From Thalassospira lucentensis (lineage in GTDB: Bacteria; Pseudomonadota; Alphaproteobacteria; Rhodospirillales; Thalassospiraceae): a stretch of 64,000 bases of DNA. The notes under the pieces were generated by a model. It did no database searches. It was given only the letters and a program-made list of their open reading frames with translations, and had not been told where the DNA came from. Both the position numbers and the translations under genes were made by a program. Each line of letters opens with the position of its first letter. Position 1 is the stretch's first letter. Shown here in pieces: positions 38,937 to 43,892 of this stretch. The stretch is taken from the NCBI RefSeq assembly GCF_032921865.1, contig NZ_CP136684.1:2453001-2517000 (forward strand). The letters run 5' to 3'.

Positions 38937-38966
38937 AAAAGGGCGCGGTTTGATCCGCGCCCTTTT
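38937..38966. terminator. Bidirectional terminator between cimA and the guanidine operon
   Basis: AAAAGGGCGCGG/CCGCGCCCTTTTT; it ends three bases before the stop of the convergent His-rich gene. Confidence 0.9.
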
Positions 38967-38969
38967 TGT

Positions 38970-39494
38970 TTAGCTGTGATGGTGATGCAGGTGGTCATGA
39001 TTGTGCGCATGTCCGAAGCGTTCGGCCGTGAAGCTTAGCAAATCGATATCGGAGCGTTCGGTCATCGACACATAGGTGAATGTCATGGTTTCGCGTTCCT
39101 CGATCATGCTGCCGGGAAACGGCAGATAGGCCAGTTCGCGGGTGGCAAAGGCCGGGCAGGCGGTGCCGATTTGCCAGTGCGTGGTGATTCTGGCATCGAC
39201 CAGATGCATGGTCAGGCCGTCCTTGCCGGTCTTTTGAAACGGGATGTCGGCAAGGCGAAGGTAGCTTGCCTTGTCATCGGCCTTGCGGAAGCCTTCGACG
39301 AAGCTTGAGGACAGGACCTGTAATTCTTCGGCATGGTCGGCGTCGCTTTGGCCGTGGACATGCGAATGCAGGTGATCGTGGTCCGGGGCGTGATTATGCC
39401 CCGGTCCGTGTGAGTGGTTTTGCCCGACATCATGATGATGGTGGTCGTGATCATGTTGATGATGCGTGTGGGTGTGGGGATGATCATGGGGCAT
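38970..39494 (-). CDS. Histidine-rich protein, candidate nickel accessory protein of the guanidine hydrolase
   Basis: 174 residues. The first 54 residues hold about 22 histidines alternating with Asp, Pro, Asn and Ser (for example HTHTHHQHDHDHHHH), and the last 14 hold eight more (HNHDHLHHHH). The middle 100 residues form a compact, non-repetitive domain (LQVLSSSFVEGFRKADD, then ARITTHWQIGTACPAFATREL and GSMIEERETMTFTYVSM) that I do not recognise. No signal peptide, so it is cytoplasmic. It starts four bases after the gdmH-like stop with GGAG seven bases before its ATG, so it is the last gene of that operon. Poly-His tails bind Ni or Zn, as in HypB, UreE and SlyD, and the neighbour needs nickel. 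The chaperone role is my inference. Confidence 0.75.
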   Translation of the reverse strand: MPHDHPHTHTHHQHDHDHHHHDVGQNHSHGPGHNHAPDHDHLHSHVHGQSDADHAEELQVLSSSFVEGFRKADDKASYLRLADIPFQKTGKDGLTMHLVDARITTHWQIGTACPAFATRELAYLPFPGSMIEERETMTFTYVSMTERSDIDLLSFTAERFGHAHNHDHLHHHHS

Positions 39495-39498
39495 CGGG

Positions 39499-40737
39499 TT
39501 ACTCCACATCCGGGCCGGCGGGGATGCTTACCGGTTTGTCGATGATGCCGCGATGCGATCCCATTTTGCCGTGCGACACCAGTGTGCCCAGCACATCGAC
39601 AATCACGCGCGTTGCCAGAAGGGCGGTAATGTCCGAGCAGTCATAGGGCGGGGAAACCTCAACGACCTCAAGCCCGCAAATGCCTTCGGCGGCGACGAGC
39701 GATACAAGTTCCAGTGCCTCGCGCGGCAGGAAGCCGCCAGGTTCCGGCCAGCCGGTGCCCGGAACGAACCCGCAATCGACACTGTCTATATCAAACGAGA
39801 TATAGACAGCATCAGCATCCTTCCATGCCAGTTCAAGCGCGCGTGCCGCGGTTTCGGCAAGTCCGAGTTCCTCGACATCGCGCATGGTGAAGATGTTGGT
39901 ATTGCGATTGCGCGCAACTTCGACCCCTTCGCGCGGGACCTGCCAGCCACCAATGCCGACCTGCACAAGGTTCACCGCCGGAACATTGACCAGATCGGTG
40001 GCATGGAACCACGGCGTGGTATGCATCCGTTCATCAAGGTCCTTTTCCTGAATGTCGATATGACGGTCGAAATGCACGATACCGATGCGTTTGGATGTGC
40101 ATTGCGCAATGCCGCGCACGCACGGGAAGCCGATGGAATGATCGCCACCGATCATGATCGGCAGCGCGCCGCTGGATGCGACGTGACTGACCGCGCGCGT
40201 GATCTGGTCAAAGGTCTTTTCGATATTGGCCGGGATGGTGAAAACATCGCCCACATCGCACAGCGTCATCTGTTCGCGAAGATCGACCCCCATTTCATAG
40301 TTATAGGGCGTGTAAAGGGCGGATATCTTGCGAACCCCCTGCGGGCCGAAACGCGTGCCGGGCCGGTATGTCGTGCCACCGTCAAACGGGATACCGATCA
40401 CGGCTGCATCATAGGCGCCGACCTTGGTAACGTCTTCGATATAGGGCGCTTTCAGAAAGGTATTGATCCCGGCATAATGGGGCAGTTCACCCCGGGCAAA
40501 GGTCGGAATTGATTTATCAGTCAGGCAATCGGACCCGGTCAGACCCATGCGAAGCGCCCACTGCTTTTCCTTTTCCCAGGCGGCTGATGGCAGCAGGGCT
40601 TCTTTTTCCGCCGATTTCCATCCGCGCAATTGCAGCTTGTCGAAATTCGGGTGGTGATGGCGGGTTGCATTGGGGGCGGGCAATGTTCCGGCCACGCGAT
40701 GTCGGCGGACATTTTGGGGGGCAAAGAAATCGCGCAT
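39499..40737 (-). CDS. gdmH: Arginase-fold ureohydrolase, guanidine hydrolase (GdmH) type
   Basis: 412 residues. The binuclear metal ligands of the arginase/agmatinase fold are present: IMIGGDHSIG, VHFDRHIDIQE and YISFDIDSVD. It differs from agmatinase in an extra N-terminal segment of about 90 residues (PNFDKLQLRGWKSAEKEALLP, ALRMGLTGSDCL), in FDRHID where agmatinases have FDAHTD, and in DERMHTTPWFHAT and TGWPEPGGF. These are features I associate with the Ni-dependent guanidine hydrolases described in cyanobacteria, which split guanidine to urea and ammonia. The operon context (guanidine-I riboswitch, NitT/TauT ABC transporter) supports this strongly. Agmatinase or guanidinobutyrase activity is the alternative. 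AAGGA precedes the ATG. Confidence 0.8.
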   Translation of the reverse strand: MRDFFAPQNVRRHRVAGTLPAPNATRHHHPNFDKLQLRGWKSAEKEALLPSAAWEKEKQWALRMGLTGSDCLTDKSIPTFARGELPHYAGINTFLKAPYIEDVTKVGAYDAAVIGIPFDGGTTYRPGTRFGPQGVRKISALYTPYNYEMGVDLREQMTLCDVGDVFTIPANIEKTFDQITRAVSHVASSGALPIMIGGDHSIGFPCVRGIAQCTSKRIGIVHFDRHIDIQEKDLDERMHTTPWFHATDLVNVPAVNLVQVGIGGWQVPREGVEVARNRNTNIFTMRDVEELGLAETAARALELAWKDADAVYISFDIDSVDCGFVPGTGWPEPGGFLPREALELVSLVAAEGICGLEVVEVSPPYDCSDITALLATRVIVDVLGTLVSHGKMGSHRGIIDKPVSIPAGPDVE

Positions 40738-40792: not shown

Positions 40793-41611
40793 TCAGGGAA
40801 CGGGTGTGGTCGCCATCAGGGCGGCCGAGAAATTCATGCCGTCGGTTTCATCGGTTTCGCCATTGGCACCGGGAACCGGTGCCGCAGACAGATCAATCGG
40901 CAGGTCATATGTGATGGTCGCGCCATAGGCTTCGGGTGTGACCGGATCGTCGCGCAGCTTGTCAAACACCAGCATCCTTGTGCCGAGTTTGAAGGCCTCG
41001 TGGATGTCGTGCGTGACCATGAAAATCGTCATGTCATGCGCCTTCCAAAGGCCCAGCAGCAATTCATGCATGTCATTGCGAATACCCGGATCAAGCGCGC
41101 CAAACGGCTCGTCGAGCAGCAGCACGCCGGGCTTCATCGTCAGGGCCTGCGCAATGGCAAGGCGTTGCTGCATGCCACCCGAAAGCTGGCTGGGATATTT
41201 GTTGGCCGCCGGTGACAGGCCGATTGTTTCAAGCAATTCGGCAACGTCGTCGCGGGCCTTTTTGCGGGCACGGCCAAACAGGCGGCCGGTCAATTTGCGT
41301 GCGGCAAATTCCGCCCCGATCATCAGGTTTTCGGCAACGGTCAGATGCGGAAAAACCGAATAACGCTGAAATACGATGCCGCGATCAGGTGTCGGTTGTT
41401 GCGGCAATGGGGCGCCATCCATCAGGATATCACCGCCACTTGGCAGTTCCTGGGACAGCAGCATGCGCAAAAAGGTCGATTTGCCACAGCCCGATGCCCC
41501 GACCAGCGTGCAAAACGCCCCGGCTTCGATATCCAGATTGATGCGTTCAAGTACCGGATATTCGCCGTAAGACTTGCTCAGGTTGCGGATCATGAATTTC
41601 GGGTCGCGCAT
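40793..41611 (-). CDS. ABC transporter ATPase, NitT/TauT type (guanidine uptake)
   Basis: 272 residues. Walker A GASGCGKST, Q-loop VFQRYSVFPHLT, signature LSGGMQQR, Walker B LLLDEPFGALD and the switch His in MVTHD are intact. A tail of about 55 residues (EAYGATITYDLPIDL...) extends the usual length. ATG 41611 overlaps the permease stop by one base; GTG 41614 is the alternative. It energises the permease of the same operon. Confidence 0.9.
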   Translation of the reverse strand: MRDPKFMIRNLSKSYGEYPVLERINLDIEAGAFCTLVGASGCGKSTFLRMLLSQELPSGGDILMDGAPLPQQPTPDRGIVFQRYSVFPHLTVAENLMIGAEFAARKLTGRLFGRARKKARDDVAELLETIGLSPAANKYPSQLSGGMQQRLAIAQALTMKPGVLLLDEPFGALDPGIRNDMHELLLGLWKAHDMTIFMVTHDIHEAFKLGTRMLVFDKLRDDPVTPEAYGATITYDLPIDLSAAPVPGANGETDETDGMNFSAALMATTPVP

Positions 41612-42432
41612 CACAGACTATCCCCCGAAAGGTGGTTCCACGGAAAAGCCCTGCGCGATGCCATCAGCAGCAGGCGATCAAGAATAAAGGCCAGAAGCGT
41701 GATCCAGGCTACATAAGGCAGGATCACATCCATCGCCAGGTAACGGCGGACCAGAAAGATGCGATAGCCAAGGCCGCTCGTGGATGCGATGGCCTCGGCC
41801 GAAATCAGGAATATCCACGCCGGGACAAGGCCAAGCCGGATGGCGGTGATCAGTTTGGGCATGACTTGCGGCAAGACCACGCGCGTGATCATTTGCCATG
41901 TTGATGCGCCCAGCGTTTCTGCCTTGATGATCAGTTCGCGCGGGATTTCCATCACCGCCTGCGACACGCAACGGATCATGACGGGGGCGGTGCCGATCAT
42001 AATCAACATCACCTTGGATGTTTCGCCCAATCCGAAAATGATGAACAGGATTGGCAGAATGGTAATCGGTGGGATCAGTGACAGGGTGGCGACAAACGGT
42101 GCCAGCCCGCGCCTGATATGCGGAATGAAGCCGATGGAAATGCCAAGCCCGACGGCAAGCAGGGTGGAAATGAAAATACCAACCGTAAGGCGCGACAGGC
42201 TATCGACCGTATCAAGCCACAGCAGATAATCGCCCGACCGTTTGTCGGCCTCGAACCCCATGCGCCAGATCGCATCCCCCATGCTGCTTAGTGACGGCAG
42301 CAGTTTGTCCGCCGGATTATCGATCCGTCGCAGATGGCTTGCGATGGCATAGGCCCCGATCAAAAGCGCAAACGGGGTCGAACCCAGCAATATGGCCGCG
42401 CGTCTTGAAAGAGTGCGGTTGATGATACGCAT
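41611..42432 (-). CDS. ABC transporter permease, NitT/TauT type (guanidine uptake)
   Basis: 273 residues with about six helices. The ATPase-contact loop AETLGASTWQMITRVVLPQ-MPKL is clear. ATG 42432 follows AAGGTG at seven bases; the GTG at 42441 overlaps that site. A 174-base gap separates it from the binding-protein gene and contains no obvious terminator. Confidence 0.88.
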   Translation of the reverse strand: MRIINRTLSRRAAILLGSTPFALLIGAYAIASHLRRIDNPADKLLPSLSSMGDAIWRMGFEADKRSGDYLLWLDTVDSLSRLTVGIFISTLLAVGLGISIGFIPHIRRGLAPFVATLSLIPPITILPILFIIFGLGETSKVMLIMIGTAPVMIRCVSQAVMEIPRELIIKAETLGASTWQMITRVVLPQVMPKLITAIRLGLVPAWIFLISAEAIASTSGLGYRIFLVRRYLAMDVILPYVAWITLLAFILDRLLLMASRRAFPWNHLSGDSL

Positions 42433-42606
42433 GGCCGTCACCTTGCAATTGCAAAAACGGTATAGGTGTCAAAACGGGGCAAAGTTCACAAAGGTCGGCC
42501 ATCCGAACCCGAAGCAACCGGTGCAATGAATGTTACCGGGCCGGATGGCCGACAGAGTTAAACAGCATTAATCAGCAAAGCGCGTGGTGACGCGAACACG
42601 CTGCGC

Positions 42607-43677
42607 TCAAAGTTCGCCCTTGGCGGCCATTTCCATATAGGTCGTGTCGAATTTCAGTTTCACATTGGCGCTGTCGCCATAGATGCTGCCGTCCGGGAAG
42701 CTGACGCCGACAAATTCCGGGCTTGGTGCGCCTTCGCCAAGGATGCCCTTGTCGAACAGGAATTCGGCGACGAATTTCATGGTTTCGGGAAGCTCGGCTG
42801 ATTTGGTGAATTCAACGGCCTTGTCCGGGGTAAAGAACATCGCCGTGCTGGCAAGCTGGGCGTCATATCCGGCAAGATCGGTTCCAGATGCTTCGGCCAT
42901 TGCAGTGCGTGCGGCAATGCCTTCGTCCGTGTCGGATGCCATGATGCCCATCAGTTCATACCATGCACCGACCAGTGCCTTGCCAAATGCCGGATTGTTG
43001 GCAAGGGTTTCGGTGTTGACCATCATGATATCGATGATTTCGCCGGGAATGCCCGCACTGTCAAAGACAAGCGTTGCATTATCGTTGGCGGCGATTTCCG
43101 ATAGAAGCGGGTTCCACGTCACGACAGATGTTACATCATCGGTGGCATAGGTCGCGATCATGTCGGCATCGGATGTATTGACGACGGTGACGTCCTGTTC
43201 AGACAGACCTACTTTCTCAAGGGCGCGTGCCAGTAGATAATGGGAAACGGAAAGTTCGACCAGATTGACATTCTGCCCCTTGATGGCGGCAAGGTCGGTT
43301 GCGTCTTTCAGGATGATACCGTCATTGCCGTTGGAATAATCGCCAACAATCAGGGCGGTGGTATCAACCCCGCCACCGGCCGGGATCGAAAGCGCGTCCA
43401 TATTGGTCATGGAGCAGCCGTCATATTCGCCGGCGGTATATTGGTTGATTGATTTAACGTAATCATTGATCTGCACGATATCGACCGAGATGTCGTATTT
43501 GTCGGCCCATTTTTTCATGATGCCGCTGTCTTGCAGATAGCCCCACGGCATCCAGCCGACATAGATCGACCAGCAGACTTTGAATTCGGATTTTTCTTCG
43601 GCGTGGGCGGGCAGGGAAGCCAGAGAGGCAGAAAGGACGGCGGCAAACGAAAGTGTTTTAAAAAACGTCTTTAACAT
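42607..43677 (-). CDS. Periplasmic binding protein of the guanidine-type ABC transporter
   Basis: 356 residues. A signal peptide (LKTFFKTLSFAAVLSASLASLPAHA) precedes VCWSIYVGWMPWGYLQDSG and YTAGEYDGCSMTNMDALSIPAGGGVDTTAL. Relatives are often labelled urea-carboxylase-region binding proteins because they neighbour urea/guanidine carboxylase genes; many are now thought to bind guanidine. AGGAG lies eight bases before the ATG. It is the first gene behind the riboswitch, and an mRNA segment complementary to its start region lies in the leader. Confidence 0.88.
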   Translation of the reverse strand: MLKTFFKTLSFAAVLSASLASLPAHAEEKSEFKVCWSIYVGWMPWGYLQDSGIMKKWADKYDISVDIVQINDYVKSINQYTAGEYDGCSMTNMDALSIPAGGGVDTTALIVGDYSNGNDGIILKDATDLAAIKGQNVNLVELSVSHYLLARALEKVGLSEQDVTVVNTSDADMIATYATDDVTSVVTWNPLLSEIAANDNATLVFDSAGIPGEIIDIMMVNTETLANNPAFGKALVGAWYELMGIMASDTDEGIAARTAMAEASGTDLAGYDAQLASTAMFFTPDKAVEFTKSAELPETMKFVAEFLFDKGILGEGAPSPEFVGVSFPDGSIYGDSANVKLKFDTTYMEMAAKGEL

Positions 43678-43774
43678 GTGTGCGCTCCTGCTTGTTTTGC
43701 GGATCACTTCGGATCAGTCAATTCAAGAAAGGCTCTTGCACACAAACCGGGAGAAGGCTTGTGCGCGACAAACC

Positions 43775-43892
43775 TGTGCAGTTGTCTCCCGGGATTTTGG
43801 CCCGCCGTGTCACCGGTCTATGAAACGTCGACCGGCTTGCGCCTCTCGGACCAGCATCCCTTTCGGAACCGGAACCCTAGGCGCGCTGCACA
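43775..43892 (-). promoter_or_regulatory. Guanidine-I (ykkC) riboswitch aptamer
   Basis: Read on the minus strand, the conserved blocks follow in the right order: CTAGGGTTCCG, CTGGTCCGAGAG, ACGGCGGG, AAAA and CCCGGGAGA. They are enclosed by a seven-pair P1 helix, TGTGCAG (43892-43886) with CTGCACA (43781-43775). A variable arm (ACCGGTC...GACCGGT-like) sits between. About 97 bases of leader follow up to the ATG. In that leader TCTCCCGG (43754-43747) is a perfect complement of the aptamer's CCGGGAGA (43792-43785), and TGTGTGC (43744-43738) can pair with GCACACA over the start codon. Guanidine binding would therefore free translation or transcription of the transporter and hydrolase genes. Confidence 0.93.

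Follow-up and report, generated by a model that had tools for sequence, protein, structure and literature searches.

How a nickel-dependent guanidine hydrolase (GdmH) is supplied with its metal outside the cyanobacteria is an open question, and a short histidine-rich gene directly behind gdmH in the stretch of Thalassospira lucentensis DNA analyzed here (64,000 nucleotides, hereafter the window) bears on it. Characterized GdmH is nickel-dependent and its activation requires GhaAB (PMC11271267), activation of MefH/DmgH depended on co-expression of HypA/HypB (PMC11399263), and the nickel-loading mechanism of the comammox guanidinase was called unclear (PMC11410670). A reading of the window from its letters alone (the sequence-only reading) had proposed that the histidine-rich protein is a nickel accessory factor for the hydrolase. 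Our analysis supports this proposal as far as computation reaches. The protein is likely to be a GdmH-specific nickel accessory protein composed of a docking core and a nickel-binding tail; nickel binding, docking, transfer and activation of the enzyme are inferred.

The gene belongs to a minus-strand unit (Table 1) that runs from a riboswitch through the genes for a substrate-binding protein (SBP), a permease, an ATPase and GdmH to the histidine-rich gene and a terminator-like hairpin. Shuffling of the hairpin region yielded 0.3 such sites on average, and since the hairpin lies directly 3′ of the histidine-rich gene, we take this gene to be the last of the unit. Its ATG, with GGAG close 5′, follows the gdmH stop after a 4-base gap, as the sequence-only reading had it. 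That reading's estimate of about 30 histidines in 174 residues, placed in two tails around a central domain, was borne out by a count of 32, with 22 in residues 1 to 55, 2 in residues 55 to 160 and 8 in residues 160 to 174. The resulting histidine fraction of 0.18 was the highest among the 132 ATG-started open reading frames of at least 100 aa in the window (mean, 0.03; runner-up, 0.09). The core gave dN/dS values of ∼0.1 to 0.35 against eight relatives, with dS above 1 in five of the eight and hence near saturation; judged by this sequence measure, it is under purifying selection. Because of these values, and because many relatives share the MPHD start, we regard the reading frame as a real gene.

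Table 1. Features of the gdmH unit, with positions in the window
Feature	Position	Strand	Basis
Guanidine-I riboswitch aptamer (RF00442), operon head	43784..43891	-	cmscan 76.3 bits, E 8.5e-12
ABC transporter substrate-binding protein	42607..43707	-	TIGR03427 545 bits, cut-off 334
ABC transporter permease	41611..42441	-	PF00528
ABC transporter ATPase	40793..41614	-	PF00005
gdmH, Ni-type guanidine hydrolase (guanidinase)	39499..40737	-	PF00491 and PDB matches
Histidine-rich accessory protein (putative)	38970..39494	-	174 aa; N-tail 1-55, core ~55-160, C-tail 160-174
Terminator-like hairpin directly 3′ of the histidine-rich gene	38937..38966	-	12-pair stem, then T-rich tail

The SBP scored far above the cut-off of TIGR03427, a family named 'putative urea ABC transporter substrate-binding protein'. 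The position of its gene, downstream of a Guanidine-I riboswitch, points to guanidine as the ligand and to a misleading family name, which is probably the case but is an inference.

The best PDB matches of the partner enzyme were 7esr/7oi1 (E 2.8e-160) and 9fek (E 4.9e-157). It keeps T123, H200, D224, H226, D228, H239, D316, D318, W330 and E360, the counterparts of the metal and specificity residues listed in PMC11410670, and it meets the guanidinase criteria of that paper, with T123, H239 and W330 at the positions of Nitrospira inopinata T105, H222 and W313. Residues were mapped by motif positions and alignment, and 9fek was taken as the N. inopinata enzyme, an inference from a constant two-residue shift. 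On these residues, the partner is predicted to be a guanidinase of the GdmH type.

We examined the linkage of the two genes in the best 80 of at least 580 gdmH relatives (73 to 100% identity). The core was encoded downstream of gdmH on the same strand in 80/80 of these loci, and its match always started within ∼350 bases after the gdmH match. Taken from the gdmH stop to the closest ATG, the spacing ranged from a 30-base overlap to a 20-base gap in 70 loci and from −599 to 221 in the other ten. One locus, L040, is labeled an Anaerolineae metagenome-assembled genome, yet it has the gdmH pair (80% identity), which otherwise came from Alphaproteobacteria; it is possibly mis-binned or transferred.

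Genome samples gave the same picture. Among 385 genomes of the class, the core was found in 13 and gdmH at 73% identity or more in 11, with pairing in 11/11; a 14th candidate from the single-sequence search (G014; E 4.4e-4, 27% identity) was dropped when the core profile did not confirm it. The phylum samples contained the core in 7/398 and gdmH in 6/388 genomes, paired in 6/6, and gdmH adjoined the core in the seventh carrier (G738) too. With the own genome and G107 present in both the class and phylum samples, the combined samples held 18 core carriers, of which 16 were paired with gdmH, and a general histidine-rich protein occurring anywhere was thus ruled out. Conversely, all 15 genomes found by the gdmH search (identity of at least 73%), the own genome included, carried the core, and on plasmids gdmH adjoined the core in all seven carriers, five of them from Sinorhizobium fredii. 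In the unpaired G365, 142 residues of an operon SBP (72% identical) precede the core; this is a collapsed operon copy, by deletion or by assembly collapse. The other unpaired genome, G125, holds a broken core copy with an internal stop (L126 7079-7360); the gene immediately before it encodes an FtsX-like ABC permease, and no gdmH was found within the 16 kb taken around this fragment.

More distant gdmH-like genes lacked the partner. No core match accompanied those at 54 to 62% identity in three genomes, in two of which (G007 and G064) the gene is cut by the contig end and in the third of which (G079) another gene follows, or the four actinobacterial genes of this kind on plasmids (53 to 62%). 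The two of these four with annotated surroundings, an annotation that is incomplete, had no HypA/HypB gene named nearby. Both the core gene and gdmH were missing from three further genomes of the genus to which the window belongs. The G079 gene (L129 7247-8437, 56% identity) has an internal histidine-rich stretch, THHDHSHMHD, after an MHTTPWF motif and no histidine-rich neighbor, as if the tail had moved into the enzyme.

We scanned 22 of the 80 loci for the riboswitch, picked to take in all eight loci without the operon's importer genes. Guanidine-I riboswitches scored above the gathering score in 20 (all but L049 and L036). They preceded importer genes in 13 of the 20 and stood only 80 to 152 bases before gdmH in the other seven (L057, L064, L066, L081, L085, L086 and L089), a distance that leaves no room for an importer gene. 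Since the riboswitch in these seven directly precedes gdmH and the histidine-rich gene, the latter is tied to gdmH and not to guanidine import. In five loci (L026, L030, L034, L050 and L088) the best SBP match ended 1.1 to 1.9 kb before the permease; the operon may contain an additional gene or another SBP at that point.

The sequence-only reading had left the central domain unrecognized and had thought it distinct from those of HypB and UreE. No Pfam or NCBIfam family matched the protein at E up to 1. With the cores taken from 72 aligned sequences, only chance matches arose, in one or two members each (best E 0.037), and a profile search of the PDB with the core returned no chain at E up to 10, so that a known-family reading of the core found no credible match. 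In particular, HypA (PF01155) and CobW/HypB/UreG were not matched by the protein at E up to 1 or among the 72 cores. HypA has a four-Cys zinc site and an N-terminal Met-His-Glu; here there is a single cysteine, C113, and the start is MPHDH. HypB is a GTPase, and neither the HypB/UreG GTPase domain (PF02492, TIGR00073) nor any other NTPase family was matched at E up to 1. UreE_N and UreE_C (PF02814 and PF05194) were absent from the protein and the 72 cores, while the own genome's UreE scored on both; hhalign of the histidine-rich protein against that UreE gave a probability of 1.5%.

The predicted structure was equally unfamiliar. Models of the core of each of two subtypes reached a mean pLDDT of 89.2 (type A, residues 46 to 165) and 88.7 (type B); in both, two helices are followed by six strands and a final helix. 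Since the two underlying alignments share most rows, the models do not count as independent of each other. A Foldseek search with either core gave no PDB match at E up to 0.001 (best E 0.42 for type A and 0.64 for type B). With VIA-align, the best Z for the type A core was 2.8, and similarities to COMM and tudor domains were weak and far below the tool's 'common' level. No HypA, HypB, UreG or UreE entry was named in the structure search rows shown, which does not exclude the UreE fold or another. As modeled, then, the fold of the core is unrecognized, which does not prove it novel. The domain thus remained without a known family or a convincing PDB fold, and because it also occurs mostly beside gdmH, both computable grounds on which the sequence-only reading would have been refuted, membership of a known unrelated family and occurrence mostly away from gdmH, failed.

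Three positions are invariant across the 72 core rows (D74, P114 and P127, numbered as in the window protein), and six more, F65, L79, P85, L98, Y123 and R134, are conserved in 95% of the rows or more. Since neither His nor Cys reaches half of the rows in any core column, metal binding is expected in the tails. These proved histidine-rich but more variable than the sequence-only reading had assumed, the conserved part being the core. The N-terminal tail contained at least 20% His in 76 of the 80 relatives, at varying length, with GHN in 71 and HSH in 74. QWQ precedes the core in 19/80, mostly Hyphomicrobiales by genus name, and this group is a diverged subtype with ∼24 to 30% identity to the window core. 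The two-tailed arrangement proposed earlier holds for the window protein but is unusual, since only 5/80 relatives have at least three histidines at the C terminus. Among these five is L015, whose protein hardly differs from that of the window. The tail is usually N-terminal, C-terminal in L046 and at both ends in the window protein, as expected of a tethered metal-binding arm. A long tail is not universal: the apparently intact L011 (genome G126) contains a single histidine over the full length of its reading frame, and the N-terminal tails of L007, L008 and L040 have no more than 3 to 4.

Support specific to nickel came from neighboring genes. A homologue of HupE/UreJ, a nickel permease family, lies near the pair in 9/80 loci of the same set (the query matched PF04955 at E 4e-57). 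In five (L053, L060, L075, L084 and L088) it is just behind the histidine-rich gene, within ∼50 bases on the same strand, distances that depend on the start codon we chose; in four (L057, L064, L066 and L089) it is upstream, 0.1 to 0.85 kb before the riboswitch. The two S. fredii plasmids examined have the order gdmH, histidine-rich gene, hupE. HupE/UreJ was not found in the own genome, so this argument rests on relatives.

The sequence-only reading had also held that HypA/HypB-like helpers are absent. HypA had no match in the whole own genome (completeness 100), and HypB had none over the cut-off of 121.2 bits; its best match, at 77.8 bits, belongs to a urease cluster, in which it is the UreG-like gene, and two weaker ones scored 25 and 22.6 bits. 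That cluster also encodes UreE, UreF and UreD. The own genome's UreE (L131 10127-10789) has a long histidine-rich C-terminal tail like those of the histidine-rich protein. The HypA/HypB route thus looks absent from this organism, and UreG/UreE could help to supply nickel. HypA is lacking in 12 of the 17 other carriers (in 10 if only the 15 whose pair is intact are counted), and in the remaining five it lies on a contig different from that of gdmH.

Taken together, these data suggest the following model. The core (∼105 residues), which looks like a docking domain because it is conserved without His or Cys and is constant beside gdmH, would dock on apo-GdmH, and the flexible histidine tail, usually N-terminal, would gather Ni2+ and keep it close to the two-metal site, which would allow the enzyme to be filled when nickel is scarce. 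The role would be the one that GhaA/GhaB (HypA/HypB-like) have for GdmH in cyanobacteria, here taken by a protein that itself lacks an NTPase domain. Gene linkage, the common riboswitch, the absence of HypA and of any HypB over the cut-off from the own genome, some HupE/UreJ neighbors and core conservation were observed; against the model stand the lack of nickel or activity data, the members with few histidines, the more distant gdmH-like genes (53 to 62%) without a histidine-rich gene, and the own genome's UreE and UreG as a possible other source of nickel. A metAB (chaperone) knockout did not grow on metformin, yet E. coli extracts with the metformin hydrolase MetCaCb but no MetAB showed activity (PMC11271267), and the comammox guanidinase produced in E. 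coli was active without known Ni chaperones and was thought to be incompletely loaded (PMC11410670). Such an enzyme may therefore need no helper when nickel is plentiful. That this one protein, with its unrecognized and possibly new fold and tethered tail, forms a complete NTPase-free nickel-loading system of the whole guanidine hydrolase clade, replacing the HypA/HypB pair, is no more than a tentative idea and on present evidence doubtful.

Several of these observations could be read otherwise. The prevalence of histidine in tails of varied length is what a buffer would also show, and the protein might be mainly an Hpn-like nickel store, a local reserve or protection for the cell, without loading GdmH specifically. 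We consider this unlikely, because the relatives conserve a folded core, which remains beside gdmH in loci that lack the importer genes, and a store should also adjoin other nickel genes, whereas 16 of 18 carriers have it beside gdmH, one beside an operon remnant and one as a broken fragment elsewhere. The same strict pairing, with overlap or close spacing in 70/80 loci, would suit a structural or stabilizing GdmH subunit whose tail is secondary. Over 73 loci, gdmH distances correlated with those of the core at r 0.89 and with those of the ATPase at 0.86 (partial, 0.64 versus 0.53), a difference that may come from shared descent. The almost histidine-free L011 fits a subunit as well, and metformin hydrolase needs a second, interchangeable subunit (PMC11399263). 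A structural role, however, leaves the long tails and the nearby HupE/UreJ genes unexplained, and we think it improbable.

Histidine tails bind several metals, and delivery or buffering of Zn, Co or Mn is conceivable. After expression in E. coli, the N. inopinata guanidinase contained one Ni and one Mn (PMC11410670). The nickel dependence of characterized GdmH and the permease genes near the pair in nine loci speak against another metal, and we give this explanation very little weight. The preferred reading remains a nickel accessory protein for GdmH.

Histidine-rich nickel accessory proteins are a known kind, and the core of this one is undescribed in the libraries searched. GhaA/GhaB, which serve Synechocystis GdmH, and the HypA/HypB pair of metformin hydrolase are likewise encoded in an operon with a Ni-dependent ureohydrolase, and nickel supply is here inferred; those systems use a HypA-like and a HypB-like protein, whereas the window has one histidine-tailed protein that matched neither family. 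In metformin hydrolase operons, hypA, hypB and hupE surround the Ni ureohydrolase genes (PMC11399263), and in the window the histidine-rich gene occupies the place where hypA/hypB would be expected. By analogy, without a sequence comparison, the nearest functional parallel is CooJ of Rhodospirillum rubrum CO dehydrogenase, a small protein with 16 histidines in its C-terminal domain that is encoded in a nickel-enzyme operon and whose mutants need added nickel (PMC6006190). CooJ works beside the ATPase CooC, while the only ATPase of the window operon is the importer's, and the histidine-rich protein has a conserved core that its models show as largely beta. UreE shares the histidine-rich tail, but its domains were not matched. 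Hpn and Hpn-like of Helicobacter are small histidine-rich nickel-binding proteins as well; they are not known to have a folded core that accompanies a single enzyme. A literature search found no description of a histidine-rich protein with guanidine hydrolase, but a mention in the primary GdmH paper (Funck et al. 2022) is not excluded.

Several known nickel insertion systems have NTP hydrolysis in common (PMC6006190), and a single NTPase-free helper, if confirmed, would depart from that rule. Two annotated relatives on plasmids are named 'hypothetical protein', so the family offers a defined target for functional testing, and the gene may help in expressing active guanidinases. In many Alphaproteobacteria, gdmH is followed by this undescribed histidine-rich gene, which probably aids nickel supply where the known helpers are missing.
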